A stretch of 64,000 nt of DNA from positions 2,976,001 through 3,040,000 of the forward strand of contig NZ_CP085135.1 in assembly GCF_020616515.1 (NCBI RefSeq). Reading direction: 5' to 3'. The notes under the pieces are model-generated. The model was not told where the DNA came from, made no database searches, and worked only from the letters and a program-made list of their open reading frames with translations. Each line of letters starts with the position of its first letter. Position 1 is the stretch's first letter. The stretch comes from Mesorhizobium sp. PAMC28654 (GTDB lineage Bacteria; Pseudomonadota; Alphaproteobacteria; Rhizobiales; Rhizobiaceae). This document shows positions 27,641 through 47,119 of this stretch, one piece after another. Both the position numbers and the translations under genes were made by a program.

Positions 27641-28686
27641 CGGGCTTTCCCCATGATGCCTTGTGGCCTGACCGCCAGCGTCACCACCATGATGACGAAG
27701 GTGAGCACGATGCCGTAGGTCGGGAAGTAGACGAGACCGATCTGCTCGGCGAGGCCGATGAGCAAGGCGCCGATAGCGGCGCCGGTGATCGAGCCCATGC
27801 CGCCGACGATGACCACGACGAGCGAGGCGAGAAGGTAGCGGACGTCCTCGCCGGGTGCGACCGACAGTGCGGAGCCGCCAACGACACCGGCAAAGCCGGC
27901 GAGCCCGGCGCCAACGGCAAAGACGATGGCGAACACCGCGTGCACGTTGACGCCCGAGGCCGAGAGCATGGCGCGGTCGTCTACGCCGGCGCGGATCATC
28001 ATGCCGACGCGCGTCTTGTTCAGCATCAGCCACAGGCCAACGCCAATGACGATCGCCGCCGCGAGCACGACGATGCGGTAAAGCGGATAGGTGAGGAAGA
28101 CCGTGGCGCCGTTGGAGCGAACCGCCGTGATGACCGGCAAGGTCAGTGCACCGTCGAGCCATTCTGGCGTCGTGATCTGATAGGTTCCGCCGGCCCACAC
28201 CGCCAGCATCAGGTCGGCGGCGACGATGGAGATGCCGATGCTGACCAGGGTCTGGCGAAGGTCGTCACCCTCCAGGCGACGGAAGACGAAGACCTGCATG
28301 ACGACGCCGACAAGAGCGAGCACCACGAAGCCGGCGGAAACGCCGAGCAGCCAGTAGCCGGTACGGCTGGTAACCTCGTAGCCGATGTAGGCGCCGAGCA
28401 GATAGAGCGAACCATGCGCGAGATTGACGTTGCGCATCAGGCCAAAGATCAGCGTGAAGCCGCTGGCGACCAGGAAATAGAGACCCGCCAGCGTGATGCC
28501 GTTGAGGATCGCGCTGACGAAAGCCTTCTTGGAGATCAGGATGGCGTTCAGCCAATCCGGCCAGACAGCAAAGACCAGCCATGCAATGACAGCGGCGACA
28601 AGAAGCCCGAAAAGGCCCCATGCCTGCCGGCCCGTCATGCCGCCGCCCGAAATGTCGGGCGAAGATGGCCGGTCGAGAATGCTCAT
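27637..28686 (-). CDS. LivH-type ABC transporter permease
   Basis: This 349-residue permease has a non-conserved N-terminus MSILDRPSSPDISGGG, a first helix (AWGLFGLLVAAVIAWLVFAV) and the LivH core beginning LNGITLAGLYFLVASGFTLIFGLMRNVNLAHGSLYLLGAY. The coupling loop reads GMMIRAGVDDRAMLSASGVNVH. It differs from minimal LivH (about 300 residues) by one extra N-terminal helix. The ATG at 28686 overlaps the amidohydrolase stop (ATGA). Confidence 0.94.
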   Translation of the reverse strand: MSILDRPSSPDISGGGMTGRQAWGLFGLLVAAVIAWLVFAVWPDWLNAILISKKAFVSAILNGITLAGLYFLVASGFTLIFGLMRNVNLAHGSLYLLGAYIGYEVTSRTGYWLLGVSAGFVVLALVGVVMQVFVFRRLEGDDLRQTLVSIGISIVAADLMLAVWAGGTYQITTPEWLDGALTLPVITAVRSNGATVFLTYPLYRIVVLAAAIVIGVGLWLMLNKTRVGMMIRAGVDDRAMLSASGVNVHAVFAIVFAVGAGLAGFAGVVGGSALSVAPGEDVRYLLASLVVVIVGGMGSITGAAIGALLIGLAEQIGLVYFPTYGIVLTFVIMVVTLAVRPQGIMGKAR

Positions 28687-30005
28687 GCGGTCAGCCGGCG
28701 GCGCTGTTCGTTGATGCGCGGCGCCTTGTGGAACTTGCCGTCCTTCATGATGGCGAGGATACGGTTCTTGTCCTGCAGGATGCGCACGTCGGCGATCGGG
28801 TCGCCGTCGATCAGCAGCATGTCGGCGAGATAGCCTTCCTTGATCAGGCCAAGCTCGTCGCCCATGTTCATGATCTGGCCGCCATATTTGGTGCCAGCCT
28901 GGATCGCCTCCATCGGCGAGAAGCCGAGCATCTCGACGAAGGTCTGGATGTCCCTGGCGTTGGTGCCTTGCGGCGTCCAGGCAAAGCCATAGTCGCCGCC
29001 GATGCAGACGCGGATGCCGCGCCGGTGCATCTTCTTCATCGTATCGATGCACATTTCGAGCTCGCGCTCATATTCGAGCGACAGCGGCGAACCGGGCTTG
29101 ATGCCCCATTGCTCGGCGTGGCGCGCGGTGTTGATCAGCCATGCGATGCCCGGCGCGACAAAGTGCTTGTCCTTGACCGCCTCGAGCATGTCGAGCGCTT
29201 CCTCGTCGGCGAAGGACGCATGGTAGATGTTCTGGATGCCGTGGCGGACACACTGCTTGACCGAGCCGGAGGAGCGCGCATGCGCCGACAGCACCTTGTT
29301 GCGGCAGCGCGCCTCGGAGGCTGCCATGGCCACCTCCTCCTCCGACATCGGCGTCTCCTCGGCGCCCATGCCGGTGATGCTCTCGCCCGACAGGTTGAGC
29401 TTGATGGAATCGACGCCGTATTTGATCAGCTGGCGCACGGTGCGCCGGATCTCTTCCGGGCCCGAAACGACGATGCCGAGATTGAGGCCTTCGTGGGGAA
29501 TGTGTGAGGGTGACGAATCGCCGAGGCCGCCGACCGTGGTGATCTCCGGGCCCGCCGCGAGATAGCGCGGTCCGGGAAACCGACCCTGGTTGATGAACTT
29601 CTTGGCCACGACATCGAGGCGCGGCTTGGCGGCCGCGGCACCCCGCCCGGCGGTGAAGCCGGCATCGAGCACCAACTTGGCCATCTCCATGGTGACCAGC
29701 ATGTGCTCCTCGACCTCCATCATCTGGATTGGGTCGATGCCCGGTGCATTGTTCCACGATAGATGCAGATGTGCGTCGATCATGCCGGGCATCAGCGTCG
29801 CGCCCATGCCGTCTATAACCGTGGCGCCACCACTGTGGGACGAAGACGAGCCGTAGCGCGACGAGCCCTTGGTGATCTGCTTGATGCGGTTGCCCTGCAC
29901 CAGCACTTCACCGGTGTATGGATATTCACCGGTGGCGTCGAGCACGCGCACATTGGTGAACAGCGTGCCGGTCGAACTGTTCCCGTTCCAACTGTCGTCT
30001 GCCAT
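28683..30005 (-). CDS. Amidohydrolase-superfamily enzyme (imidazolonepropionase/prolidase-like)
   Basis: This 440-residue metal-dependent hydrolase has an N-terminal composite beta-sandwich followed by the barrel. The first metal motif is MLPGMIDAHLHLSW (His79, His81). Later ligands are likely in SAHARSSGS and NIYHASFADEEAL, with Asp in CIGGDYGF. The family hydrolyses cyclic amides, lactams or peptides. Being cotranscribed with an ABC importer, it probably opens or deacylates the imported compound, but the substrate is not identifiable. A Ser-rich insert near residues 48-60 is unusual. Confidence 0.88.
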   Translation of the reverse strand: MADDSWNGNSSTGTLFTNVRVLDATGEYPYTGEVLVQGNRIKQITKGSSRYGSSSSHSGGATVIDGMGATLMPGMIDAHLHLSWNNAPGIDPIQMMEVEEHMLVTMEMAKLVLDAGFTAGRGAAAAKPRLDVVAKKFINQGRFPGPRYLAAGPEITTVGGLGDSSPSHIPHEGLNLGIVVSGPEEIRRTVRQLIKYGVDSIKLNLSGESITGMGAEETPMSEEEVAMAASEARCRNKVLSAHARSSGSVKQCVRHGIQNIYHASFADEEALDMLEAVKDKHFVAPGIAWLINTARHAEQWGIKPGSPLSLEYERELEMCIDTMKKMHRRGIRVCIGGDYGFAWTPQGTNARDIQTFVEMLGFSPMEAIQAGTKYGGQIMNMGDELGLIKEGYLADMLLIDGDPIADVRILQDKNRILAIMKDGKFHKAPRINEQRRRLTA

Positions 30006-30057
30006 AACAAGCCTCCCAACTTGCCGAGCGCGTAGTTCTACGCTCGATCAAAAACCC

Positions 30058-30837
30058 TCACCTATCAACCCGTCTCAAAAAATCGGCGAGCTTCTGGCTG
30101 CTTTCGCGCGGGCTCTCCACCGTAGCCCAATGTCCGCACCGATCCAGCGAAGAGAATACGGCGCCCTTGATCTTGTCGGCAAGCGCCTGGGCGACACCCT
30201 GCGGATTGACCGTGTCGGCATCGCCGGTGACCAACAGCGCTGGCGCCGAAATCCGCCGTGCATCGACAGCGGTCGCCTTGGCCAGGGCCTCGCAGGTGCG
30301 GGCATAGGACTCCGGATCCTGGCGCGTGATCGATTCCCGCACAAAGGCAACGGCCGCCGGCGAAGTTTCCCTGGTATGCGCCGAAATCGCGTTGGCGACG
30401 ATCTGGTCGGCGATGTCAGCAATGCCACCGGACCGCGCCAGGCGAGCCCGATTGGCGAGACCTTGCCGCGTCGCCTCCGCCGGTTCCGCCAACGCGCCGA
30501 ACAGCGCCAGCGAGGCGACCAGCGACGGCTGCGAGGCCGCCATCTGCTGGCAGACGATGGTGCCCATCGAATGGCCGACGAGATGCGCCTTGGTCACACC
30601 CATGCCGTCCATGGCCCGGATAACCGCTTCGCTCATCATCTCGATGGTCAGCGGCTCGATCGGCCTTGCCGAACGTCCGGAACCCGGCAGGTCGATGCGC
30701 ACGACGCGATAGCCGGCCAGTGCCGACATCTGCGGCTGGAACATGTTCGACGTTCCGCCAAGGCCGTGGATCATCACCACCGGCATGCCTTCGCCGGTGA
30801 CTTCCGCGACGATGGGGCCGACGGTGACGCTTGTCAT
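30058..30837 (-). CDS. Alpha/beta hydrolase
   Basis: This 259-residue serine hydrolase has an oxyanion segment VVMIHGLGGT, the nucleophile elbow GHSMGT (Ser90), a likely acid in VTGDADTVNPQ and the catalytic His in CGHWATVE. It is similar in size to 3-oxoadipate enol-lactonases and other carboxylester hydrolases. Its stop region overlaps the FAH gene start side by four bases, and it lies 52 bases upstream of the amidohydrolase, so it is probably part of the same catabolic operon. Confidence 0.9.
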   Translation of the reverse strand: MTSVTVGPIVAEVTGEGMPVVMIHGLGGTSNMFQPQMSALAGYRVVRIDLPGSGRSARPIEPLTIEMMSEAVIRAMDGMGVTKAHLVGHSMGTIVCQQMAASQPSLVASLALFGALAEPAEATRQGLANRARLARSGGIADIADQIVANAISAHTRETSPAAVAFVRESITRQDPESYARTCEALAKATAVDARRISAPALLVTGDADTVNPQGVAQALADKIKGAVFSSLDRCGHWATVESPRESSQKLADFLRRVDR

Positions 30838-31712
30838 TGGGCGCGCTCCGCAAATCTGTTTTCCAATGTGCCGATGCCGTCGATCTCGACACGGACGACG
30901 TCACCGGCCTTCAGATATTTCGGCGGGTCGAAACCGATGCCGACGCCGGCCGGCGTGCCCGTTGCAATGATGTCGCCGGGCTTCAGCGTGATGCCTTGCG
31001 ACAGCGTCGCGATGATCGTCGGGATATCGAAGATGAGCAACGATATCCGGGAATCCTGGCGCAGATCATCATTGACGAAACAACGGATGCCCGCGGTTTC
31101 GAGGTCGAAGTCATCCTTGGTCACCGCCCATGGCCCCATCGGGCAGAACGTATCTTGCGATTTGCCGATCAGCCACTGGCTGTATTTGCCTTGAAGGTCG
31201 CGAGCGGTGACGTCGTTGACGATCGTGTAGCCCCAGACATGATCGAGCGCATCCTCCTTCGAGATACCGCGCCCGCCCTTGCCGATGATGACGGCCAGTT
31301 CGGCCTCGTAGTCGATGGCTGTCGAAACGGAGGAATCGATCAGCACACTGGCATGGTTCGCGACGACCGATTCAGGGACCTTGGAAAAGATGATCGGGTG
31401 CTTTGGCACGGCACCCGCGCCGGCGCTGGAATCAAAACCGCTGCGGGCAAATTCGTGTGCGTGTTCGTGATAATTCTTGCCGACGCAAAAGATGTTGCGG
31501 CGCGGCAGCGGGATTGGCGCCTCGATCTCGACCTGGGAAAGCGGGATCGACGAAAGAGTGCGTGGATTGCTCACGCCGTTGCGCTCGATGAGCGCCAGGA
31601 TGCCCGCCTCGGCGCGCTCGACCGGAAAATCGAAAGGCGCGACGGTCTGGGCGTCGAGATCGACCATACCCACACGGCGCTCACCCGCGATCGAAAATGT
31701 CGCGACCCGCAT
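30834..31712 (-). CDS. Fumarylacetoacetate hydrolase family protein
   Basis: This 292-residue enzyme has the FAH C-terminal domain. GKNYHEHA (near 80), IDYEAELAVIIGKGGRGI with metal-binding Glu residues and GDIIATGTPAGVG near the end are all present. The family includes acylpyruvases, hydratases and decarboxylases in catechol meta-cleavage routes. The start MRVATFSIAGERRVG at 31712 has GGAGG upstream. It is the first gene of the minus-strand operon and is divergent from a GntR regulator. Confidence 0.92.
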   Translation of the reverse strand: MRVATFSIAGERRVGMVDLDAQTVAPFDFPVERAEAGILALIERNGVSNPRTLSSIPLSQVEIEAPIPLPRRNIFCVGKNYHEHAHEFARSGFDSSAGAGAVPKHPIIFSKVPESVVANHASVLIDSSVSTAIDYEAELAVIIGKGGRGISKEDALDHVWGYTIVNDVTARDLQGKYSQWLIGKSQDTFCPMGPWAVTKDDFDLETAGIRCFVNDDLRQDSRISLLIFDIPTIIATLSQGITLKPGDIIATGTPAGVGIGFDPPKYLKAGDVVRVEIDGIGTLENRFAERAQ

Positions 31713-31736
31713 CCAGTTTCCTCCCTGAACCTTTTT

Positions 31737-31891
31737 TGAACCATATCTGGCTCTTTCGCTACACGCTATAGCCCATTGGTTCATACTTCAAGGGGATTTT
31801 TCGTTTCCCAGCTCTACAAAACCAACATATTTATGAATGCAGCCGATCTGAACGCTGGACCAAACCGTAATCATTTGCTATTTTTGGTTCA
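31737..31891. promoter_or_regulatory. Putative GntR operator sites (TGAACCA / TGGTTCA)
   Basis: The divergent promoter region holds TGAACCA at 31737-31743 and its exact complement TGGTTCA at 31777-31783 and again at 31885-31891. A near copy, TGGATCA, lies at 31896. Inverted half-sites between a GntR/FCD regulator and its likely target operon are a reasonable candidate for the operator. This is inference from position and symmetry only. Confidence 0.45.
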
Positions 31892-31919
31892 ACATTGGAT
31901 CAGATTAAGCTAGCCCCGA

Positions 31920-32591
31920 ATGCCGAAAATCGTCGCCAACGACATTGCCACAGTGCTCAGGAAGCGCATCTCATCCGGCGAATGGCTTGAACTGGGACGC
32001 ATGCCGCCGGAGCGTGACCTTGCGGTCGAATTCGGCGTCGCGCGCAATACCGTGCGCCGTGCCGTCGGCTTCCTCGAGGATGATGGGACCGTTGTCCGGC
32101 ATGTCGGGCGCGGCACTTTTCTGACCGCGCCCAATCCGACGTCGATCACCTCGATGGTCACGCGGATGGAAGGCACCAGCCCCGCCGACATGATGGAGAT
32201 CAGGCAGTTGCTCGAACCGGCAGCCGCTGCCTTTGCCGCGACAAACGCCAGCGCGGGGGAATTGAACGCGGTTCGCGAGGCCCACCAGACCGCATCCGAT
32301 GCCACGGACATGCCGGAGTTCGAGCATTGGGACGCCGAATTCCATCACCGGGTGTTCGCCTGTTGTCGCAATGACTTCCTGAAAGAGATCCACAATCTCA
32401 TGCGCGCCATCCGCAACCAGTCGCCCTGGTTCGAAATGAAGAAGCGCTCATTCTCGGAGGAGCGCCGCTTGGTCTATTGCAACGAGCATCAGGCAATCCT
32501 GGATTGCCTGTTTCACCGCGACCCCGAGGGCGCGAAGAAGGCGATGCTCACCCACCTGCGGACAGTCGAACACAACCTTCTGGGCCGGTAG
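31920..32591 (+). CDS. GntR-family (FCD domain) transcriptional regulator
   Basis: This 223-residue regulator has an N-terminal winged helix (about 1-70, with PPERDLAVEFGVARNTVRRAV as the recognition region) and a C-terminal FadR-like FCD all-helical domain. The FCD domain carries likely metal ligands in EHWDAEFHHRVF and a late His in CNEHQAILDCL. It is divergent from the FAH-led operon and probably represses it until an effector, likely a pathway acid, binds. No good ribosome binding site precedes the ATG at 31920. Confidence 0.92.
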   Translation: MPKIVANDIATVLRKRISSGEWLELGRMPPERDLAVEFGVARNTVRRAVGFLEDDGTVVRHVGRGTFLTAPNPTSITSMVTRMEGTSPADMMEIRQLLEPAAAAFAATNASAGELNAVREAHQTASDATDMPEFEHWDAEFHHRVFACCRNDFLKEIHNLMRAIRNQSPWFEMKKRSFSEERRLVYCNEHQAILDCLFHRDPEGAKKAMLTHLRTVEHNLLGR

Positions 32592-36227: not shown

Positions 36228-36630
36228 GGCCGGCCTTGCCCCCATCCATGTCCGAAAACACCTCCTTGGCGATCTTGAAGGCGCGGTTGGCGGCCGGCAC
36301 GCCGGCATAGATAGCGACATGCAGGAACGCCTCGCAGATATCGTCGCGCGACGCGCCGGTGTTGACTGTGGCGCGCACATGCATGGCGACCTCATCGTCA
36401 TGGCCAAGTGCCGCCAGCAGCGCCAGGGTCACGATCGAGCGTTCGCGTTTCGTAAAGCCCGGCCGCGCCCACACCGTGCCCCATGCGGCCTCGGTGATCA
36501 ATTGCTGGAACGGCTGGTCGAAATCCGTGGCGACCGCTTCGGCGCGGTCGACATGCGGATCGCCGAGCACAGAGCGCCGGACCGCCAGCCCGGCCTGGTA
36601 TCGGTTTGCGTTTTGGGGAGCTTCATCCAT
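36217..36630 (-). CDS. pcaC: 4-carboxymuconolactone decarboxylase
   Basis: This 137-residue AhpD-like helical protein decarboxylates 4-carboxymuconolactone to 3-oxoadipate enol-lactone. [19 protein letters not shown] and the catalytic-region [20 protein letters not shown] stretch (here KRERS...) are conserved, as is [15 protein letters not shown]. It overlaps pcaD upstream by eight bases and pcaH downstream. It is not fused to pcaD, unlike the PcaL form in actinobacteria. Confidence 0.95.
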
Positions 36631-37435
36631 GAGTTTTTGTTCCAGAGGGAAGCGAGGCGAGGAAATCGCGGATCAGGGCAACCATTGCGCCCGGTTGCTC
36701 GACGCAGGGAATATGGCCGGCGTTGCGAATGATCTCGAAGCGCGCACCGGGAATGAGGCCGGCCAGCGAGCGGACCAACTCGGGCGGCGTTGAGCCGTCC
36801 TGGTCGCCGACGATGCACAACGTGGGGATCGCGATACGTCTGGCTGCGTCGGTGAAATCGGCGTCGCGAACCGCGGCGCAAGTTCCGATGTAACCGGCGA
36901 GCGCTTGCCGGGTCAGCATGTTGCGGCAGCCGGCAAGCTCGGCTGAACGCTCGGAATGGAAGGCTGGCGTGAACCACACCTTGAGCACGCCTTCGGCTAC
37001 GGCCTGGATGCCGTCGCGCTCGACCGTTGCGATGCGTGTGTTCCAGCTGTCGGCTGTTCCGATCTTGTGAGCGGTGTCGCACAATATGAGAGCGTCGATG
37101 ATGTCAGGGCGCCGGGCACACAGGCCTTGCGCGATCAGGCCGCCGACCGACAGGCCGCAAAGTACGATATTCCTGAAACCGAAATGATCGATGAGGCCGG
37201 AGAGATCGTCGACATGGTCGTCGATGGAGCGGATGCCGGCGCCGATGTCGGAGAGCCCATGGCCACGCTTGTCGTAGACGAGCAAGGGCATTTCACCGCT
37301 CAGGGCGGAGGCTACCTCATCCCAGATCCGGAAGTCGGTGCCGAGCGAATTGATGAACACGATCGGGCGCGCATAGCCGTTCGCCTTGATATGGCGGTGG
37401 TGCAGCGCGACGCCGCCAATGTTGAGAAATGGCAC
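36623..37435 (-). CDS. pcaD: 3-oxoadipate enol-lactone hydrolase
   Basis: This 270-residue alpha/beta hydrolase produces 3-oxoadipate. It has the strand-turn FINSLGTDFRIWDEV, the nucleophile CGLSVGG (Ser96), Asp in CIVGDQDGSTPPE and the catalytic His in RNAGHIPCVE. The start is taken as GTG at 37435 (VPFLNIGGVALHHR) because GGAGG lies 9 bases upstream and the family begins there; an ATG at 37459 lacks a good site. First gene of the pcaDCHGB-pobA operon, it is divergent from pcaQ, with a PcaQ box between them. Confidence 0.94.
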   Translation of the reverse strand: MPFLNIGGVALHHRHIKANGYARPIVFINSLGTDFRIWDEVASALSGEMPLLVYDKRGHGLSDIGAGIRSIDDHVDDLSGLIDHFGFRNIVLCGLSVGGLIAQGLCARRPDIIDALILCDTAHKIGTADSWNTRIATVERDGIQAVAEGVLKVWFTPAFHSERSAELAGCRNMLTRQALAGYIGTCAAVRDADFTDAARRIAIPTLCIVGDQDGSTPPELVRSLAGLIPGARFEIIRNAGHIPCVEQPGAMVALIRDFLASLPSGTKTHG

Positions 37436-37479
37436 GATTTCGATCCTCCAACGCCACATTGCACTAGGCGTTTGGTTCG

Positions 37480-37521
37480 GTAAAATGATATTTTGCGGCT
37501 TTTCGTTAACTCAGGGGTTAT
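37480..37521. promoter_or_regulatory. PcaQ box and adjacent imperfect palindrome, pcaD promoter
   Basis: On the minus strand, ATAACC-CCTG-AGTTAA at 37521-37506 differs by one base from the ATAACC-N4-GGTTAA motif reported for PcaQ of Sinorhizobium meliloti. It lies 86 bases before the pcaD start. Closer to the gene, at 37480-37496, is the imperfect palindrome GTAAAAT-GAT-ATTTTGC, which may be part of the promoter. The box is also eight bases from the pcaQ start, allowing autoregulation. Confidence 0.8.
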
Positions 37522-37528
37522 GTAATTC

Positions 37529-38446
37529 ATGTCTGAAAGCCGCATCCGCTTCCGGCACCTCCAGGCATTCCTGGAGGTCGCGCGCCAGGGAAGCGTGGCC
37601 AGGGCGGCCGATTTCCTGCATGTCAGCCCACCGGCGGTGACCAAGACCTTGCGTGAACTGGAAGAGGCGCTGGGCGTCGCCGTCGTCGAGCGCGATGGGC
37701 GCGGCATCCGGGTGACACGCATGGGCGAGATCTTCCTTGGCCATGCCGGCACGGCGATCACCGCGCTGAAGCGCGGGGTCGATTCTGTCCGGCAGGACGG
37801 GGCCATCAACCGCCACCCTATTCGCATCGGCGCGCTGCCGACGGTGTCGGCTCGGGTGATGCCGCTGGCGATGAGCCTGTTCCTCAAGGAGAACACGGGG
37901 GCCGCGATCAAGATCGTCACCGGCGAGAACGCGGTGCTGCTCGAACAGTTGCGGGTGGGTGCACTGGACCTTGTCGTCGGGCGGCTTGCGGCGCCAGAAA
38001 ACATGACCGGGTTCTTCTTCGAGCATCTCTATTCCGAACAGGTGCTGTTCGTGGTGCGGTCTGGACACCCGCTGCTGCAGCCGGACCAGGACGTGTTCGC
38101 CCGGCTCGATGAATTTCCCGTGCTCATGCCAACGCGGGAATCAGTGATCCGTCCCTTCGTCGACCGCCTGTTCATCACCAACGGCATGACGGCGCCGGCA
38201 ACGGAGATCGAAACCGTCTCGGACTCCTTCGGCCGCGCCTTCCTGCGGCAAAGCAATGCTGTCTGGATCATTTCCGCTGGCGTCGTCGCCAATGAGATCA
38301 GCAGCGGCGCCTTCGTCGCCCTCAACGTCAACACGGACGAAACCAAAGGACCGGTCGGCCTGACGATGCGAACGGACATTGCCCCCTCGCCGGCCTTCTC
38401 CATCCTTCTCCAGACCATTCGCGAGGCCGCAAGCCAGGGCAAGTGA
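37529..38446 (+). CDS. pcaQ: LysR-family regulator of protocatechuate catabolism
   Basis: This 305-residue LysR-type regulator has an N-terminal winged helix (about 1-65: FRHLQAFLEVARQGSVARAADFLHVSPPAVTKTLRELEEALG) and a periplasmic-binding-like effector domain from about 95. PcaQ of rhizobia and Agrobacterium activates pcaDCHGB in response to carboxymuconolactone and related intermediates. Its place, divergent from pcaD with a matching box, supports the name. A second box downstream suggests it also controls the ABC/dehydrogenase operon. Confidence 0.94.
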   Translation: MSESRIRFRHLQAFLEVARQGSVARAADFLHVSPPAVTKTLRELEEALGVAVVERDGRGIRVTRMGEIFLGHAGTAITALKRGVDSVRQDGAINRHPIRIGALPTVSARVMPLAMSLFLKENTGAAIKIVTGENAVLLEQLRVGALDLVVGRLAAPENMTGFFFEHLYSEQVLFVVRSGHPLLQPDQDVFARLDEFPVLMPTRESVIRPFVDRLFITNGMTAPATEIETVSDSFGRAFLRQSNAVWIISAGVVANEISSGAFVALNVNTDETKGPVGLTMRTDIAPSPAFSILLQTIREAASQGK

Positions 38447-38518
38447 GCGCGGCCGGCCTGGTTCGACGGCGACAGTCTCGAAGCGATGGAAGGCGGCGTC
38501 TTGCCACGACTCGTTTCC

Positions 38519-38560
38519 ATAACCCTCAGGTTAATGAAACGCCGTAAAATATCATTTTAC
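38519..38560 (+). promoter_or_regulatory. Second PcaQ box and palindrome, ABC operon promoter
   Basis: ATAACC-CTCA-GGTTAA at 38519-38534 is an exact match to the published PcaQ motif. At 38544-38560 lies the perfect palindrome GTAAAAT-ATC-ATTTTAC. Both have the same spacing as in the pcaD promoter, and the shared block continues through CCGAACCAAA and GTGCAATGTGGCG. The promoter is therefore a copy of the pcaD promoter facing the other way. Confidence 0.85.
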
Positions 38561-38604
38561 CGAACCAAAACCGTGGTGCAATGTGGCGATGGAGGATCAA
38601 AACC

Positions 38605-38688
38605 ATGCCATTCGCCAGCATCGGCCGCGTAGCGTTGCGCCGTCGTCATGGACCGGCAACAGCGACGACCGGGTGGCATAGGCGTTGA
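38605..38688 (+). pseudogene. Remnant of the pcaD 5' end
   Basis: After GGAGGATCAAAACC an ATG opens a 27-codon frame, MPFASIGRVALRRRHGP..., ending at TGA 38686-38688. Its start parallels VPFLNIGGVALHHRHIK of pcaD, and the ATG lies 86 bases from the PcaQ box, the same distance as in pcaD. Similarity fades after about 15 codons. It may now be a translated leader peptide or just a scar. Confidence 0.75.
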
Positions 38689-38734
38689 ACAAACCGGCGT
38701 TCGCCTTGGGCGTCGCCAACAAGGGAGGACTCAC

Positions 38735-40051
38735 ATGACCGACGGTATCGAGAGCAAATCCATCATTCGCGGCGTCTCGCGGCGCCAGTTCATCGCGACG
38801 TCCGCGGCTGGCGGCGCGGCACTCGTGCTCGGTGGTCGCAAAGCCTTCGCGCAGGCAGGCGACACGCTCAAGGTTGGCTTCGTCAGTCCGCGCACCGGAC
38901 CGCTCGCCGGCTTCGGCCAGACCGACGGTTATGTGCTCGACCTCGCCCGCAAGGCGCTGGCCGGCGGCCTCGAAATCGGCGGCAAGAAATACAGCGTCGA
39001 AATCGTCGACCGGGACACGCAGTCCGACCCGTCACGCGCTGGCCAACTCGCCAAGGACCTGATCAACAACCAGGCCATCGACCTGATGCTGGCCGTCTCC
39101 ACGCCCGAGGTCATCAATCCCGTGGCCGACGCCTGCGAGGCGGCCGGCGTGCCGTGCCTCTCGACGGTCATGCCATGGGAAGCGTGGTATTTCGGCCGCG
39201 GCGCCAAGCCCGGCGCGCCCTCGCCTTTCAAGTGGACCTATCATTTCGGCTTTGGTGTCGGGGAGTTCTTCAAGGCCTACATCTCTCAATGGAACCTGAT
39301 CGAGACCAACAAGAAGGTCGGCGTCATGTATCCCAACGATGCCGACGGCAACGCCATCCGCGCCAATCTGGCGCCGCTGCTGGCCAAGCAAGGTTTCACC
39401 ATCATCGATCCCGGCGCCTATGAGACCGGCACCACCGACTATTCCTCTCAGATCGCGCTGTTCAAGCAGGAGGGGGTCGAGATCTTCAACTCCTTCCCGA
39501 TCCCGCCGGATTTCGCGGCCTTCTGGCGACAGGCGGCGCAGCAGGGCCTGACGCGACAGATCAAGATCTGCCAGGTCGCCAAGACCGGGCTGTTCCCGTC
39601 GGACATCGAGGCGCTCGGCGATCTCGGCATGAAGATTTCGAGCGCCGCCTATTGGCACAAGGCCTTCCCCTACAAATCGCCGCTGACCGGCGTCTCGGGC
39701 ACGGAACTGGCTGACGGCTACGAGGCTGCGAGCGGCAAGCAGTGGACGCAGCAGCTTGGCGCCTCGATGTCGCTGCTCGACGCCGGCTTCGAAGCGCTGA
39801 AGGTCAGCACCAACGCCAAGGACAAGGCGGCCGTCGCCAAGGCACTGAGCACGCTGAAGACCGAGACCATGATCGGCAAGGTCGATTTCACCAGCGGGCC
39901 GGTGGCCAACGTGTCGCCCGGCCCGATCATCGGCACGCAGTGGGTGGCGGCGAAGGAAGGAGCCAAGTTCCCGCTCGACTATGTGGTGACCGAGAACGCC
40001 ACCGACCCGAAAGTGCCCGTCGAGGCCAAGCTCCTGCCTTACAACGGCTGA
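38735..40051 (+). CDS. pcaM: HAAT-type ABC transporter substrate-binding protein, probably for protocatechuate-like acids
   Basis: This 438-residue protein has a twin-arginine signal (VSRRQFIATSAAGGAALVLGG, cleavage near AFAQA) and a type I binding fold beginning GDTLKVGFVSPRTGPLAGFGQTDGYV. In Sinorhizobium meliloti, PcaQ controls an ABC system (PcaMNVWX) that imports protocatechuate. The exact PcaQ box upstream and the adjacent pca genes make this the likely counterpart, though the ligand could be another aromatic acid such as vanillate or coniferyl derivatives. The start at 38735 has AAGGGAGGA upstream. Confidence 0.85.
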   Translation: MTDGIESKSIIRGVSRRQFIATSAAGGAALVLGGRKAFAQAGDTLKVGFVSPRTGPLAGFGQTDGYVLDLARKALAGGLEIGGKKYSVEIVDRDTQSDPSRAGQLAKDLINNQAIDLMLAVSTPEVINPVADACEAAGVPCLSTVMPWEAWYFGRGAKPGAPSPFKWTYHFGFGVGEFFKAYISQWNLIETNKKVGVMYPNDADGNAIRANLAPLLAKQGFTIIDPGAYETGTTDYSSQIALFKQEGVEIFNSFPIPPDFAAFWRQAAQQGLTRQIKICQVAKTGLFPSDIEALGDLGMKISSAAYWHKAFPYKSPLTGVSGTELADGYEAASGKQWTQQLGASMSLLDAGFEALKVSTNAKDKAAVAKALSTLKTETMIGKVDFTSGPVANVSPGPIIGTQWVAAKEGAKFPLDYVVTENATDPKVPVEAKLLPYNG

Positions 40052-40075
40052 TGGACCGCTGACGAGGATCGCTTC

Positions 40076-40816
40076 GTGACCCATCCGCAACAACAGGCGA
40101 TCCTCACCGCAGCCGGCGTTCACAAGCGCTTCGGCGCGCTGGTGGTGCTGGATGACATCGACTTCGCCATGGCCGCCGACGAAGCGGTCGGCATTGTCGG
40201 CCCGAACGGCGCCGGCAAGACCACGCGGCTCAGCGTGCTCGCCGGCGCCTTTCCGCCAAGCGCGGGCAAGGTCAGCTTCAAGGGCGGCGACGTGACGTCG
40301 CTTCCGGCAACACGGCGCTGCCGCCTCGGGCTGGTGCGCACGCACCAGGTGCCGAAACCGTTCGGCGGCATGACCACTTTCGAGAATGTCTTCGTCGCCG
40401 CATCGCATGGCGCCGGCCTCGGCCGCGACGAAGCCTATGAGGAAGCGCTTGGATCGCTGAAGCTGTGCGGCATGCTGGGCGTTGCCAACAGGCGCGCCGA
40501 GACGCTTGGGCTGCTCGACCGCAAGCGGCTGGAGTTGGCGCGGTCGCTGGCGGCGCGGCCCACCCTGCTGTTGCTGGACGAGATTGGCGGCGGGCTGACC
40601 GATGGCGAGGCCGGCGAACTTGTCGACACGATCAAGGAATTGCGCCGGCGCAAGATCGGCATCGTCTGGATCGAGCATATCGTCCACATCCTGCTGCAGG
40701 TCGCTGAGCGGCTCATCTGCATGGATGCCGGCAAGATCATCGCCGACGGCGAGCCGCAAGCTGTGATGGCCGATCCTCAGGTGATCCGCGCCTATCTCGG
40801 CGGAGGCCCGAAATGA
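40076..40816 (+). CDS. LivG-type ABC ATPase of the PcaQ-linked importer
   Basis: This 246-residue NBD starts with GTG (VTHPQQQAIL). Walker A is GPNGAGKTT and Walker B is LLLLDEIGGGL. The signature region reads ETLGLLDRKRLELARSL, lacking a classical LSGGQ, as in many LivG proteins of aromatic or amide importers. It lies 24 bases after the binding-protein gene, and its end overlaps the next ATPase gene by four bases. Confidence 0.92.
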   Translation: MTHPQQQAILTAAGVHKRFGALVVLDDIDFAMAADEAVGIVGPNGAGKTTRLSVLAGAFPPSAGKVSFKGGDVTSLPATRRCRLGLVRTHQVPKPFGGMTTFENVFVAASHGAGLGRDEAYEEALGSLKLCGMLGVANRRAETLGLLDRKRLELARSLAARPTLLLLDEIGGGLTDGEAGELVDTIKELRRRKIGIVWIEHIVHILLQVAERLICMDAGKIIADGEPQAVMADPQVIRAYLGGGPK

Positions 40817-41541
40817 GCCTGCTTTCGGTCGAGATCCTGGTTGTCCGGCACGGCCTTCTGCAAGCAGTGCGCGGCGTGAGCTTCAAGGTCGAACGCGGCG
40901 AGACGCTGGCGCTGGTCGGCGCCAACGGCGCCGGCAAGACGACGCTGCTGCGCGCGATCGCCGGTGCCCATCAGCCGGCCGCGGGCCAGGTGCTGTTCGA
41001 CGGCGCGGATCTCTCCGGTGTGCCATCTCACAAGCGGGTTGGCATGGGCATCGCGCTGGTGCCCGAGGGGCGAAAGCTGTTCGTGCAGATGACGGTCGAG
41101 GAGAACCTTCTGCTCGGCAAGACAGCCGGCCGGGCGGGCGACTGGAGCGTCGAAAAGGTGCTGGAGATGTTCCCCAATCTGAAGCCACGCCGTCGTGCCA
41201 AGACAGGCCATCTGTCGGGCGGCGAGCAGCAGGCGACGGCGATCGGCCGTGCGCTGATGAGCAATCCCGACCTGCTGCTGCTCGACGAGGTTTCGCTCGG
41301 TTTGTCGCCTTTGATCGTCGACCGCGTCTATGCCTCGCTGCAGGCGCTGATCTCCTCGGGTACCACGATCATCCTCGTCGAACAGGATCTCAATCGCGCA
41401 CTGTCGGTGTCGGACAGGGTCATATGCATGCTGGAAGGACGCGTCTCGCTCGAAGGGCCAAGCAAAGGCATGTCGCGAGATGATGTGACGGAGGCCTATT
41501 TCGGCCTTCACAAGACGAGCGCCGGGAGCGTCTCGGCGTGA
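40813..41541 (+). CDS. LivF-type ABC ATPase of the PcaQ-linked importer
   Basis: This 242-residue NBD has Walker A GANGAGKTT near 37-45, signature LSGGEQQATAIGRAL and Walker B LLLLDEVSLGLSP. The EGRKLFVQMTVEENLLLG segment is typical of LivF. It pairs with the preceding LivG-type ATPase. Short overlaps (four bases) on both sides indicate tight translational coupling within the operon. Confidence 0.94.
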   Translation: MSLLSVEILVVRHGLLQAVRGVSFKVERGETLALVGANGAGKTTLLRAIAGAHQPAAGQVLFDGADLSGVPSHKRVGMGIALVPEGRKLFVQMTVEENLLLGKTAGRAGDWSVEKVLEMFPNLKPRRRAKTGHLSGGEQQATAIGRALMSNPDLLLLDEVSLGLSPLIVDRVYASLQALISSGTTIILVEQDLNRALSVSDRVICMLEGRVSLEGPSKGMSRDDVTEAYFGLHKTSAGSVSA

Positions 41542-42434
41542 GCAACCAGATCGTCCAGGGCATCCTTCTCGGCGGCTACTACGCAATCATCGCCTGCGGC
41601 CTGTCCTTCATGTTTTCGGTGATGCGCATCATCAATCTCGCCCATGGCAGTCTTGCCGTGTTCTCCGCCTATATGCTGTGGCTGCTGGCCTCGCACTTCC
41701 ATGTCTCGCCATTCCTCGGCCTGCTCATCGTGCTGCCCCTGATGGCGGCGATCGGCTGGGCGCTGCAACGCTTCCTGCTGGAACGCAGCGCGCGCGGCGG
41801 GGCGCTGTTGCCGATCCTCACCACTTTCGGCCTGGCTATCGTCATCGACAATCTGTTGTTCGAGCAGTTCGGCGCCGACACCCGCTCGCTGGCACCCTAT
41901 ATCGGCAGCCTGTCCTATGATTCCTGGGAATGGCCAGGCAGCATCTATGTCGGCAAGCTCGCCGTGATGATGTTTGTCACCTCTGTCATCCTGCTTGGCG
42001 GGCTGCAGCTGTTCCTGACCCGAACCCGGCTGGGTCGCTCGATCCGCGCGACATCGGAAGACCCCGATACCGCCGGCCTGGTCGGCGTCGACGCGCGCCG
42101 CGCCAATGCCATCGCCGCATCCATCGCCATGGTCACGGTCGGCATTGCCGGGGCGTTCCTCGGCATGCGCGCCACCTTCGATCCCTATGCCGGAGCGCCG
42201 CAATTGCTGTTTGCATTCGAGGCGGCGGTCATCGGCGGCGCCGGCTCGCTGTGGGGAACGCTGATCGGCGGCGTCGTGCTGGCCCTCGCCCAGACGCTTG
42301 GCGCGCAGGTGCATCCGCAAGGTTTTCTGATCGGCGGCCACGCCGTTTTCCTCATCGTGCTGTTCGTGCGGCTTTCCGCGTCCGGCCTTGGCCTGCGCGG
42401 CCTGTTGCGCCTGCCATCCGGGAAGGCGTCATGA
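41538..42434 (+). CDS. LivH-type permease of the PcaQ-linked importer
   Basis: This 298-residue inner-membrane permease starts with GTG (VSNQIVQGILLGGYYAIIACG) at the four-base overlap. About eight helices are predicted. The LivH motif FSVMRIINLAHGSLAVFSAYMLW appears near 27-50, and the coupling loop reads LGRSIRATSEDPDTAGLVGVD. It forms the membrane pore with the following LivM-type gene. Confidence 0.93.
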   Translation: MSNQIVQGILLGGYYAIIACGLSFMFSVMRIINLAHGSLAVFSAYMLWLLASHFHVSPFLGLLIVLPLMAAIGWALQRFLLERSARGGALLPILTTFGLAIVIDNLLFEQFGADTRSLAPYIGSLSYDSWEWPGSIYVGKLAVMMFVTSVILLGGLQLFLTRTRLGRSIRATSEDPDTAGLVGVDARRANAIAASIAMVTVGIAGAFLGMRATFDPYAGAPQLLFAFEAAVIGGAGSLWGTLIGGVVLALAQTLGAQVHPQGFLIGGHAVFLIVLFVRLSASGLGLRGLLRLPSGKAS

Positions 42435-43615
42435 GCGCGCCAGCCACCATGCCTGTCATCGAGCGCGGCACGGCGACCTCGCGCGTCGCGGCGATTGTCG
42501 TCGCCGTGATCATCGTGCTGCTGGCGATCGCGCCGCAATTCCTGTCGGCCGGCGCGGTCGACCGGATGACCGCGCTGTTCATCTATGTGATCCTGGCGGC
42601 GATGTGGAACGCGCTGGCTGGCTTCGGCGGACTGGTCTCGGTCGGCCAGCAGGTGTTCTTCGGGCTCGGCGCCTATTTCGCCATCCGGCTGGCCGATGCC
42701 GGCCTCAACCCCTTCCTCTCGCTGTTCGTGTCCGGGATTGTCGTCGGCGTGGTGTCCATTCCCCTCTCGCTGTTCATGCTGCGGCTGAAGAACGGCGAAT
42801 TCGCCATCGGCATGTGGGTGATCGCAGCGCTTACCCATCTGCTGGTCAATCTCGACCGCCTGGTGCAAGGCGAAACCGGCACCTCGCTGATTTCGCTCAA
42901 CGTCTACGACGCCGGCACAAGACGGGCGACGATCTATTGGCTGGCGCTGGCGTCGATGACGGCACTGCTCGCTATCCTGTTTGGCCTGCTGCGCGGCAGC
43001 ACGGGTGCCGCGATCCGCGCGATCCGCGACAATGAGGATGCCGCCGCCTCGGTCGGCGTGCGCGTCACCGGCACCAAGCGGCTGCTGTTCGTGCTTGCGG
43101 CCTTCGGCATCGGCATTGCCGGCGCGCTGTGGCTGGCGACGTCCATCACCTTCCAGCCAAAAACCTACTTCAACGTGCAGTGGACCGCCTACATGATCTT
43201 CATGGTGCTGGTCGGCGGCATCGGCACGTTCGAGGGCGCCATTCTCGGTGCGCTGGTGTTCTTCCTCATCGAAACATGGTTCGGCGGCACCGGCGTCTGG
43301 TACCTGGTCGGCCTTGGCGCCACGGCCGTGCTGTTCTCGCTCTTCCTGCCGCGCGGCCTGTGGGGACGATCGAAGAGCGCTTTGGCCTGCGCCTGCTGCC
43401 GGTCGGCTACCGTGTACGGTTTCCGGCGAACCCAGCAAGCCCCGGCGATGACGGCCCAGCGCCCTCGCGGCAAACCACAAGGCATCAGGAGAAAGCATGA
43501 CCATGCTTTTCGGCAAGACGATACTCATCACCGGCGTCGCCTCCGGCATCGGTGCGCGCACGGCGGAACTCGCCGGTCAGCTCGGTGCCGACGTGATCGG
43601 CGTCGATGTGCGTGA
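42431..43615 (+). CDS. LivM-type permease of the PcaQ-linked importer, 3' frameshift
   Basis: The start MSAPATMPVIERGTATSR at 42431 overlaps the LivH stop. Membrane helices and the coupling loop AIRDNEDAAASVGVRVTGTKRLL are normal up to LPRGLWG. At about 43366 the frame changes: this frame runs on with a basic, Cys-rich tail 119 bases into the next gene. The +1 frame reads TIEERFGLRLLPVGYRV, the expected LivM ending, and stops at 43500 in ATGA overlap with the dehydrogenase. A single missing G near 43366-43369 would explain this. The membrane core is intact, so function may survive. Confidence 0.85.
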   Translation: MSAPATMPVIERGTATSRVAAIVVAVIIVLLAIAPQFLSAGAVDRMTALFIYVILAAMWNALAGFGGLVSVGQQVFFGLGAYFAIRLADAGLNPFLSLFVSGIVVGVVSIPLSLFMLRLKNGEFAIGMWVIAALTHLLVNLDRLVQGETGTSLISLNVYDAGTRRATIYWLALASMTALLAILFGLLRGSTGAAIRAIRDNEDAAASVGVRVTGTKRLLFVLAAFGIGIAGALWLATSITFQPKTYFNVQWTAYMIFMVLVGGIGTFEGAILGALVFFLIETWFGGTGVWYLVGLGATAVLFSLFLPRGLWGRSKSALACACCRSATVYGFRRTQQAPAMTAQRPRGKPQGIRRKHDHAFRQDDTHHRRRLRHRCAHGGTRRSARCRRDRRRCA

Positions 43616-44288
43616 GCCGGCAGCAGTGGTTGGCAGCTTCGTCAAGGCCGACATCTCGTCGAAGGCCGGCGTCGACGATCTCGTTGCCCGCCTGCCCCAA
43701 CGCATTGATGCGCTCTGCAATGTCGCCGGTCTTTCCGGCAACACCGGCGTGGTATCGACGCTCGCCGTCAACTTCTTCGGCCCGCGGGCGCTCTCGGAAG
43801 GTCTCGCGCCAAAACTCCGCGAAGGTGGCGCAATCGTCAACGTCGCTTCAATCGCCGGCTATGGCTGGCGCGCCAACCTCAACCGCGCCGCTTCCATGGT
43901 CGGCATCGAAGGTTTTCCGGATGTCGCCAAGGTGGTCGAAGACCATACCGTCAAGAACGAGGAAGGCTATCCCGTTTCCAAGGAGCTTCTTCTGCTGTGG
44001 ACCTTTCGTGCCGCGCATCAGGACCTGTTCAAGAACCGTGGCATCCGCGTCAATGCGGTCAGCCCCGGGCCGGTCGAAACGCCGATCCTGAAACAATTCC
44101 GCACCGTGCTCGGCGACGCCCGTGTCGACAGCGACATCGCCCGCGTCGGACGCGCCGGCACATCGGGCGACATAGCACCGGTGGTGCTGTTCCTGTGCTC
44201 GGACGGCGCACGCTGGGTCAACGGCGCCAATGTGCCGGTTGACGGAGGCCTCGAAGCTTCGATCAATGCCGAGGTACTCGGCTTCTAA
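43497..44288 (+). CDS. SDR-family dehydrogenase, coniferyl-alcohol dehydrogenase type
   Basis: This 263-residue NAD(P)-dependent short-chain dehydrogenase has cofactor motif TGVASGIG (12-19), CNVAGLSG, a catalytic Ser in VNVASIAGYGWR and the Tyr-x3-Lys pair Tyr158/Lys162 in YPVSK. The GWRANL insertion after the Ser strand resembles coniferyl-alcohol dehydrogenases (CalA) and 3-alpha-hydroxysteroid dehydrogenases. Cotranscription with an aromatic-acid importer and a vanillin-type dehydrogenase favours oxidation of an aromatic alcohol. The substrate is not proven. Confidence 0.83.
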   Translation: MTMLFGKTILITGVASGIGARTAELAGQLGADVIGVDVREPAAVVGSFVKADISSKAGVDDLVARLPQRIDALCNVAGLSGNTGVVSTLAVNFFGPRALSEGLAPKLREGGAIVNVASIAGYGWRANLNRAASMVGIEGFPDVAKVVEDHTVKNEEGYPVSKELLLLWTFRAAHQDLFKNRGIRVNAVSPGPVETPILKQFRTVLGDARVDSDIARVGRAGTSGDIAPVVLFLCSDGARWVNGANVPVDGGLEASINAEVLGF

Positions 44289-44328: not shown

Positions 44329-45774
44329 ATGGATATCGGACTTCTGATCGACGGCGACAAAAGGGAGGCGTCCGGTTCGGCCTCCTACGAGCGTATGGAC
44401 CCATTCACAGGCAAACTTGCAACGCGTGCCGCTGCGGCCAGTGTCGCCGATGCCAATGCCGCCGTGGAAGCCGCCGCAGCCGCCTTCCCCGCATGGTCCA
44501 AGACCGGACCGGGCGAACGCCGCGCCTTGCTGTCAAAGGCTGCTGACATCATGGCCTCGAAGGTCGGCGAATTCACCCGGCTGATGATGGAGGAGACGGG
44601 CGCCACCGGGCCTTGGGCCGGTTTCAACGTCATGCTCGCGGCCAACATGCTGCGCGAGGCGGCGGCGATGACGACGCAGATATCCGGAGAGATCATCCCC
44701 TCCGACAAGCCGGGCACGCTCGCCATGGGCATCCGCCAGCCGGCTGGCGTGTGCGTTGGCATCGCGCCATGGAACGCACCTGTCATCCTCGGTACCCGCG
44801 CCGTGGCGATGGCAATCGCCTGCGGCAATACGGTGGTGCTGAAGGCCTCCGAAATGTGTCCGGGAACGCATCGGCTGATCGGCCAGGTGCTGGTCGAAGC
44901 TGGCCTGCCCAAGGGCGTCATCAATGTCGTTACCAATGATCCCAAGGACGCTGCGAGCATCGTCGAGGCGCTGGTGGCGCATCCGGCGGTACGGCGCATC
45001 AACTTCACCGGCTCGACCAAGGTCGGCAGGATCATCGCCGAACTGGCCGGGCGGCACCTGAAGCCGGCGCTGCTCGAACTCGGCGGCAAGGCGCCGCTTC
45101 TGGTGCTGGACGATGCCGACATCGATGCCGCGGTGAACGCCGCGACCTTCGGCGCCTACATGCATCAGGGGCAGATCTGCATGTCGACCGAGCGGTTGAT
45201 CGTCGACGAAAAGATCGCTGACGAGTTCGTGGCCAAGCTCGCGGCCCGCGCCTCCAAACTGCCGGCCGGCGACCCACGCGGCCATGTCGTGCTGGGATCG
45301 CTGATCAGCAGCCAGGCCGCCGACAAGATGGAGGAACTGGTTGCCGATGCCGTCGCCAAGGGTGCCAAGCTGGTCGCAGGCGGCAAGCGCAGCGGCACGG
45401 TTGTGGAAGCGACGCTGCTCGACCACGTCACGCCGGCAATGCGGGTCTACGCTGAAGAATCCTTCGGGCCGGTCAAGCCGGTGGTCCGGGTGAAAGGTGA
45501 GGACGAGGCCGTTCGTGTCGCCAACGATACCGAATACGGCCTGTCCTCCGCCGTGTTCAGCAGGGATATCAGACGGGCGCTGGCGGTGGCGGCGCGAATC
45601 GAATCCGGTATCTGCCACATCAACGGTCCGACTGTCGGTGACGAGGCGCAGATGCCGTTCGGCGGCGTCAAGGGTTCCGGTTTCGGCCGCTTCGGTGGCA
45701 AGGCGGCGATCGCCGAGTTCACCGATTTGCGCTGGGTGACGATCGAGGATCCCGGCCAGCATTATCCGTTCTGA
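44329..45774 (+). CDS. Aldehyde dehydrogenase, vanillin/benzaldehyde type
   Basis: This 481-residue NAD(P)-dependent aldehyde dehydrogenase has PWNAP, FTGSTKVG (cofactor loop), catalytic Glu250 in LELGGKAP and Cys284 in GQICMSTER. The MSTER variant after Cys is characteristic of vanillin, salicylaldehyde and benzaldehyde dehydrogenases. It is the last gene of the PcaQ-linked operon, 40 bases after the SDR gene. It probably oxidises an aromatic aldehyde to an acid that feeds protocatechuate. Confidence 0.87.
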   Translation: MDIGLLIDGDKREASGSASYERMDPFTGKLATRAAAASVADANAAVEAAAAAFPAWSKTGPGERRALLSKAADIMASKVGEFTRLMMEETGATGPWAGFNVMLAANMLREAAAMTTQISGEIIPSDKPGTLAMGIRQPAGVCVGIAPWNAPVILGTRAVAMAIACGNTVVLKASEMCPGTHRLIGQVLVEAGLPKGVINVVTNDPKDAASIVEALVAHPAVRRINFTGSTKVGRIIAELAGRHLKPALLELGGKAPLLVLDDADIDAAVNAATFGAYMHQGQICMSTERLIVDEKIADEFVAKLAARASKLPAGDPRGHVVLGSLISSQAADKMEELVADAVAKGAKLVAGGKRSGTVVEATLLDHVTPAMRVYAEESFGPVKPVVRVKGEDEAVRVANDTEYGLSSAVFSRDIRRALAVAARIESGICHINGPTVGDEAQMPFGGVKGSGFGRFGGKAAIAEFTDLRWVTIEDPGQHYPF

Positions 45775-45969: not shown

Positions 45970-46045
45970 GCCGCTTTAGCTCAGTTGGTAGAGCACCGCA
46001 TTCGTAATGCGGGGGTCAGGTGTTCGAGTCACCTAAGCGGCACCA
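45970..46045 (+). tRNA. tRNA-Thr (anticodon CGT)
   Basis: The acceptor stem GCCGCTT pairs with AAGCGGC, followed by discriminator A and an encoded CCA. The D arm TAGCTCAGTTGGTAGAGCA, the anticodon stem-loop GCATT-CGT-AATGC with anticodon at 46003-46005, and the T arm with GTTCGAGTC are all present. CGT reads the ACG threonine codon. AT-rich, gene-poor DNA follows, and tRNA 3' ends are common integration sites, but no repeated tRNA end was found in the window. Confidence 0.96.
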
Positions 46046-47029: not shown

Positions 47030-47119
47030 TATCGCCTGGATAGTGGGTGCCGGTCGATCGCCGGCACCCGGACCTCCTGTTTAACCAGAATCGGCCCAGA
47101 GCCTGTTCCAGTGGGCCCC

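Follow-up and report, generated by a model that had tools for sequence, protein, structure and literature searches.

An inverted copy of the pcaD promoter beside pcaQ probably brought a transport and aldehyde operon under PcaQ control in Mesorhizobium

How a regulator acquires new targets is mostly deduced from its binding sites and nothing else. The enlargement of a regulon by promoter duplication is already a known kind of event in rhizobia: the study of Ferrieres et al. 2004, to judge by its title, reportedly concerned regulon growth through the copying of a regulated promoter in a rhizobium, and another precedent is that of reiterated nifH promoters that carry coding remnants. The Escherichia coli citrate case is an instance of promoter capture in laboratory evolution. 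The available part of PMC10621929 describes one promoter-capture event in laboratory evolution. Here we report a related arrangement around the regulator gene pcaQ in Mesorhizobium sp. PAMC28654. In the window, by which we mean the whole 64,000-nucleotide (nt) stretch that was analysed (NZ_CP085135.1, positions 2,976,001 to 3,040,000, forward strand), the pcaD promoter and an inverted copy of it lie on either side of pcaQ, and the operon behind the second copy, encoding an ATP-binding cassette (ABC) transporter and enzymes of aldehyde metabolism, has probably passed to PcaQ control. As in the laboratory captures, genes would have come under new control via another promoter, here in a natural, apparently old and genus-wide form. 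Compared by title, the case of Ferrieres et al. 2004 shares with ours the enlargement of a regulon by promoter duplication in rhizobia; ours differs in the regulator, in the inverted copy beside the regulator gene, in the source-gene codons carried along and in a decay traceable through the genus. It is an unusually complete record of such an event. Source, copy, coding scar, the gene order of relatives, a contrasting pcaM promoter in Sinorhizobium meliloti and stages of decay are all preserved, so that the sequence of events is legible and its steps are open to test one by one. Our literature search, which included the combination of PcaQ, Mesorhizobium and protocatechuate, found no account of this duplication; MacLean 2008 and 2011 lay outside its reach and could mention it.

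The closest described system is pcaMNVWX of S. meliloti, a protocatechuate ABC transporter activated by PcaQ according to the available parts of two reports (PMC5002191, PMC4495286). In both systems, a Leu-Ile-Val-type ABC transport operon is preceded by a PcaQ box. They differ in their binding proteins, which are not orthologous, in the S. meliloti promoter, which outside the box and a nearby palindrome is only 32% identical to that of its own pcaD, and in the two genes that the window operon adds, for a dehydrogenase of the CalA family and an aldehyde dehydrogenase (ALDH). We considered and rejected the identification of the window operon as pcaMNVWX, since its binding protein is only 32% identical over 102 residues to S. 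meliloti PcaM, and the finding warns against giving it that name. A nearer relative of the genes themselves is found in Rhizobium (R. leguminosarum WSM1325 pR132501; R. etli CIAT 652 pC), with the same order of transporter, dehydrogenase and ALDH and a binding protein about 85% identical. The Rhizobium operon differs in having an extra ALDH gene and a divergent AraC-type gene ahead of it, and no match to a PcaQ box.

The two promoter copies, A and B, form inverted arms at 37391-37525 and 38515-38649, which are 135 nt long and 79% complementary, with 989 nt between them. A search of the 6.7 Mb genome (expectation value, E, up to 0.001) matched copies A and B only, copy B at E 2.8e-27, and found no third copy of the promoter block to that threshold. 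Starting close to the pcaQ start codon, a few bases off, the arms extend through box, palindrome, ribosome-binding site and start codon to pcaD codon 15. Copy A (37391..37525, minus strand; inverted-repeat and genome searches) thus comprises the pcaQ-pcaD intergenic control region and the first 15 codons of pcaD, and is taken as the original; it occupies the same place in other genera. The copied 5' codons come from pcaD (36623..37435, minus), which starts with GTG at 37435 and encodes a 3-oxoadipate enol-lactonase (TIGR02427, 347 bits, cut-off 256). The PcaQ box of copy A, ATAACCCCTGAGTTAA (37506..37521, minus), has the same form as the S. meliloti pcaD box (locus L166 in our set), and an AT-rich palindrome, AAAATATCATTTTA (37481..37494, minus), follows 27 nt after the box start. 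Between the arms lies pcaQ (37529..38446, plus), encoding a LysR-type regulator (TIGR02424 TF_pcaQ, 417.7 bits, cut-off 303.8); its nearest PcaQ match, at 95%, points to Mesorhizobium.

Copy B (38515..38649, plus), identified as the inverted duplicate by alignments and a tree, stands ahead of the operon. It repeats the PcaQ box as ATAACCCTCAGGTTAA (38519..38534, plus), the AT-rich palindrome 27 nt past the box start (38546..38559, plus; sequence and pattern search) and the pcaD ribosome-binding site, GGAGGATC (38591..38598, plus). The distance from the first box base to the start codon is 86 nt in both copies (GTG 37435, minus; ATG 38605, plus), just as an earlier note, made from the sequence alone, had given it; that note's main observation, that inverted copies of the pcaD promoter with box and palindrome flank pcaQ, is likewise borne out by the arms and the genome search. 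The box of copy B in the window fits the ATAACC-N6-TTAA form of S. meliloti pcaD and has pcaD-like spacing to palindrome and start codon. Past its box-side end, pcaQ-coding sequence gave nothing above shuffles (score 10, which 23% of 500 shuffles reached), and the recognisable copy therefore stops no more than a few bases away from the start codon of pcaQ. In that search, which covered this edge, no other mark of the duplication event was identified. Scanning 37380-38760 with a sigma-70 consensus gave no site, terminator-like sites were no more frequent than chance, and a search of 36400-40200 gave no match in Rfam.

For comparison across the genus we assembled 88 loci: 60 from Mesorhizobium or Mesorhizobium-like genomes (drawn from 77 PcaQ loci), the window and 27 further loci of the genus. 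Merging identical A-B pairs left 54 distinct pairs. The copies were located with a pattern that took in part of the palindrome; every operon-bearing locus yielded a copy B, so no variants were dropped, and the one locus that was ambiguous under the A/B rule (L153) was assigned by orientation. An exact 21-base pattern around the palindrome occurs in 25 of 394 family genomes and in nine of 109 genera, Mesorhizobium included, and all 27 hits are pcaD-pcaQ control regions or the Mesorhizobium second copy. Because this block is constrained in pcaD promoters, likeness there is uninformative, and flank, box and palindrome were set aside. Over the 50 positions left, copies A and B of the window are 84% identical. 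Mesorhizobium A-B comparisons average 75.6% (77.1% for own-genome pairs), Mesorhizobium pcaD promoters reach 52% against 23 pcaD promoters of other genera, and in S. meliloti the promoters of pcaM and pcaD, the single other PcaQ promoter pair compared, agree at 32%. The S. meliloti site was located by pattern in L166 and has the sequence quoted in the available part of PMC5002191; against copy B, the pcaM promoter gives 0.454 over 88 nt. The identities outside flank, box and palindrome indicate that copies A and B are more than two look-alike PcaQ promoters. In the palindrome block of copy B, 20 of 24 positions are invariant; the three least conserved segments together have one such position among 21. 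The palindrome AAAATATCATTTTA itself recurs among the pcaD promoters of nine genera, mostly at the 27-nt distance from the box start, and is nearly invariant within Mesorhizobium.

From its start codon onward, copy B retains a remnant of pcaD, a 27-codon open frame (38605..38688, plus) of which the first 15 codons are recognisable by sequence and shuffle test. The in-frame match covers 32 of 45 nt (VPFLNIGGVALHHRH / MPFASIGRVALRRRH), and none of 100,000 mononucleotide shuffles attained it in that register. The alignment that the earlier note had named as able to refute its reading did not do so: it gave an identity above that of the one S. meliloti promoter pair (84% against 32%) and matching pcaD codons. 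For the window, the note's estimate of some 15 codons holds. The relative nearest by operon binding protein (L137, 97%) keeps the longest piece, with a match that spans 156 nt and reaches about pcaD codon 21, and the copied piece was therefore longer than the window's 15 codons. The remnant is clear in seven of the 54 distinct pairs (the window, L137, L003, L004, L006, L025 and L013) and down to 5-6 nt in 29; in the other 18 it is weak or undetectable, with four of these (L040, L045, L047 and L051) scoring above at least 97% of 500 shuffles. The window remnant reads TTCGCCAGCATCGGC, nearer to the pcaD of other clades (TTCGTCAGCATCGGC, for example in L005) than to the window's own (TTTCTCAACATTGGC).

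The earlier note had suggested seeking the same scar in other Mesorhizobium and Sinorhizobium genomes, and in Mesorhizobium the paired copies proved to be widespread. Both copies are found in 72 of the 88 loci, each time with the operon downstream of pcaQ, and copy A only in 16. These 16 showed neither a second copy nor the operon in the downstream stretch searched (about 6 kb; 1.2 kb for L067). Copy B and operon occur together in 45 of 61 loci of the first set and in all 30 of the second (the 27 further loci plus L080-L082), and the operon's binding protein is present in 63 of 146 genus genomes at the threshold used. Mean identities over the 54 pairs are 0.857 between A copies, 0.814 between B copies and 0.748 between A and B. 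A tree places all B copies on one side of one branch, with no misplaced row, at a support of 0.267. Across 44 loci, binding-protein distances correlate with those of pca genes (r 0.68 and 0.73; the pcaQ-pcaB yardstick is 0.76). The genus-wide comparisons suggest one old duplication behind all B copies, and the event looks old and spread through the genus rather than recent in the window strain. In L040, about 2.35 kb with several open frames separates pcaQ from copy B, with copy and operon beyond. L059 and L067 are pcaQ loci about 32 kb apart on one contig of Mesorhizobium silamurunense (NZ_JHQR01000162.1) that fall on different branches of the pcaQ tree.

Orthologues of the operon's binding protein, at 78-86%, turned up elsewhere too: a search of 297 family genomes placed them in six other genera (11 genomes), and they also lie on Rhizobium plasmids. 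All 13 loci outside Mesorhizobium (L164, L165, L168-L178) have an extra ALDH gene (ALDH1) ahead of the binding-protein gene, a divergent AraC-type gene was detected ahead of the operon in 11 of them, and the box/palindrome patterns found no match ahead of the operon in any of the 13. In R. etli CIAT 652, neighbouring genes are annotated fcS (feruloyl-CoA synthetase), ech (enoyl-CoA hydratase) and calB (coniferyl-aldehyde dehydrogenase). The window's genome has no orthologue of ALDH1, the best match being the operon's own ALDH (65%), and none of the AraC-type gene, for which the best match is 34% and partial. The operon's first part and probable regulator are thus missing where copy B sits. In a tree of the binding protein, Mesorhizobium falls on one side of a branch with support 77/77, with no one sister group singled out.

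True PcaM orthologues (76-86%) are separate proteins, present in 13 of the 146 genus genomes, 12 of which lack the captured operon. The two binding proteins occur together in one genome (G524, region L203), while 62 genomes have only that of the captured operon and 12 only true PcaM. This co-occurrence is below chance (one-sided Fisher p 0.005, kinship uncorrected), and the genome count makes displacement of one transporter by the other plausible. True pcaM stands after pobA in the pca cluster in L203 and L204, and downstream of pcaQ on the other strand in L207 and L208, two of six larger regions; in L203 the captured operon for its part lies next to pcaQ. Upstream of true pcaM, strict box/palindrome patterns went unmatched both in 12 loci (L191-L202) and in the six larger regions.

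Copies A and B are homologous and occur throughout the genus, the promoter block is conserved, the pcaD codons decay, and gene order ahead of the operon has changed. On such comparisons of sequence, we consider it very probable that an old inverted promoter duplicate captured the operon for PcaQ. The pcaQ-pcaD control region, with at least about 20 pcaD codons, would have been duplicated in inverse orientation, probably in a single event no later than the base of the sampled Mesorhizobium. Copy B would have come to stand before the ABC-transport/aldehyde operon downstream of pcaQ, in the place held elsewhere by the extra ALDH gene and usually the divergent AraC-type gene. Together with its inducer and bound to the copied box, PcaQ would switch on the copied promoter; the transporter, CalA-family dehydrogenase and ALDH would then be expressed together with pcaDCHGB. 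Selection would keep the promoter block, leaving the pcaD codons as a decaying scar. We infer the single origin, PcaQ binding and activation, the substrate and the former AraC-type control; PcaQ-dependent activation is the most likely function given the conserved box, spacing and promoter block. The arrangement suggests that PcaQ in Mesorhizobium controls both uptake and oxidation of alcohols or aldehydes feeding protocatechuate. Capture of the operon into the PcaQ regulon by promoter duplication, as read in the earlier note, is supported by the alignment, the 54 distinct strain pairs, the S. meliloti pair and the orthologous operons without this promoter. Homology extends well beyond the operator, a pcaD coding scar is present and relatives carry the operon without that promoter; PcaQ control is predicted from the conserved box and promoter block.

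Several observations weigh against this reading. The grouping of the B copies in the tree is weakly supported (0.267). On the pcaQ tree the operon is patchy: it turns up here and there in every deep group and requires 11 changes, at least seven of them forced by firm branches, so that repeated loss, or loss and regain, must be assumed. The patchiness fits early gain with repeated loss, and one loss can be seen in L035, where the 3' end of the operon ALDH gene lies directly behind pcaQ. Own-genome A-B identity (0.759) slightly exceeds cross-genome identity (0.748; permutation p 0.0003, kinship uncorrected), so limited gene conversion between the arms is possible. The S. meliloti comparison is one pair, whose independence is itself inferred from its low similarity. 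The donor form may already have lacked ALDH1 and the AraC-type gene, so that neither need have been lost at capture. Lastly, 49 of the 54 A copies but only seven of the 54 B copies have A as the first box base (alignment position 9), the remaining B copies having C (42), G (4) or T (1); copy B of the window, one of the seven, keeps A.

The available part of PMC5002191 reports that changing the first box base to G lowered pcaMNVWX activation in S. meliloti. Most B boxes may therefore be weaker or differently tuned, and the A and B promoters may not be plainly equivalent across the genus. The boxes also differ at position 19, which is A in 54/54 A copies and G in 52/54 B copies; the right half-box is accordingly AGTTA in all A copies and GGTTA in 52 of the 54 B copies, giving a symmetric TAACC-N4-GGTTA. 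That the captured operon displaced PcaMNVWX in most Mesorhizobium having either, and that its copied operator was retuned, we put forward tentatively, as a joint claim that stands somewhat short of even chances. If it holds, transport and aldehyde oxidation would switch on at another PcaQ or inducer level than ring cleavage. A separate change lies at alignment position 71 of copy B (GTGCAATG to GTGCACTG), with C in 34 of 54 B copies and A in all 54 A copies. It alters an opposite-strand TTGCAC hexamer, by eye perhaps part of a pcaQ-side promoter that would now point antisense into pcaQ; the consensus promoter scan listed none at this hexamer.

Other origins for copy B can be weighed against the same data. 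Two independent PcaQ promoters might have grown alike through a shared demand for box, spacing and AT-rich element, and indeed pcaD promoters of several genera show constraint on the palindrome block, and S. meliloti pcaM carries a TCATTTT stretch equally far from its own box. Outside box and palindrome, however, the one S. meliloti pair stands at 32% against the window's 84%, and no regulatory need would account for in-frame pcaD codons; we regard independent origin as highly improbable. Slightly less remote, though still very unlikely, is descent of copy B from a pcaMNVWX promoter behind which the operon was swapped. The rarity of genomes with both the captured operon and true PcaM (the Fisher test above, kinship uncorrected) would agree with a swap, as would true pcaM downstream of pcaQ in L207 and L208, two of the six regions. 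Yet the S. meliloti pcaM promoter is unlike copy B (0.454 over 88 nt), copy B holds pcaD codons, and the strict patterns went unmatched ahead of true pcaM in the 12 loci and six larger regions.

A recent duplication, or ongoing gene conversion, in the window strain alone would account for the slight own-pair excess and has a parallel in the Mesorhizobium neociceri group, where CCAAACC is shared by both arms in all four loci and GTAACC in two of them (L003, L004). Across the genus, though, B copies are closer to one another than to A copies, and the window's TTCGCCAGCATCGGC is nearer to the TTCGTCAGCATCGGC of other clades than to its own TTTCTCAACATTGGC, so that we give this explanation as little credence as the operon swap. 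Two functional roles seem remoter still. The remnant could be a working leader peptide regulating the operon, for which the ribosome-binding site and 27-codon open frame kept in the window would speak; yet 29 of the 54 distinct pairs have lost these codons and in another 18 they are weak at best, and this role is hardly credible. Inverted repeats about 1 kb apart are able to recombine and might form a switch that flips pcaQ, but the operon lies 3' of pcaQ in all operon-bearing entries examined (45 and 30, in overlapping sets that share the window and many strains), which leaves the switch next to no chance. An old inverted duplication that captured the operon is thus the reading we prefer.

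The captured operon begins with the Leu-Ile-Val-binding type ABC substrate-binding protein (38735..40051, plus), which sequence comparison separates from S. meliloti PcaM. Profile searches identified the two ABC ATPases, LivG-like (40076..40816, plus) and LivF-like (40813..41541, plus), and permease 1 (41538..42434, plus). Permease 2 (42431..43615, plus), assigned by position and sequence, has a frame that overruns the start of the next gene, which encodes a short-chain dehydrogenase of the coniferyl-alcohol dehydrogenase (CalA) family (43497..44288, plus; NF009092, 362 bits, cut-off 242). CalA serves here as a family label; according to the available part of PMC7054097, a reannotation makes the Pseudomonas putida CalA a vanillin reductase. 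The last gene encodes the ALDH (44329..45774, plus), which we link, by identity rather than by tree, to the downstream ALDH of the Rhizobium operon (74-87%, against 57-65% to the other ALDH). The overlap of the permease 2 frame with the dehydrogenase gene is about 118 nt; in R. leguminosarum WSM1325 these genes do not overlap. In L004 and G399:C82, the substrate-binding gene is matched in two overlapping pieces, resembling a frameshift.

Just downstream of the operon are a tRNA-Thr (cgt) at 45970-46045 and then a DUF1800 protein at 47111-48709. On the other side, beside the pob/pca cluster, the window holds at 28683-32591 amidohydrolase, alpha/beta-hydrolase-like and FAA-hydrolase genes with a GntR/FCD regulator, perhaps a further catabolic set.

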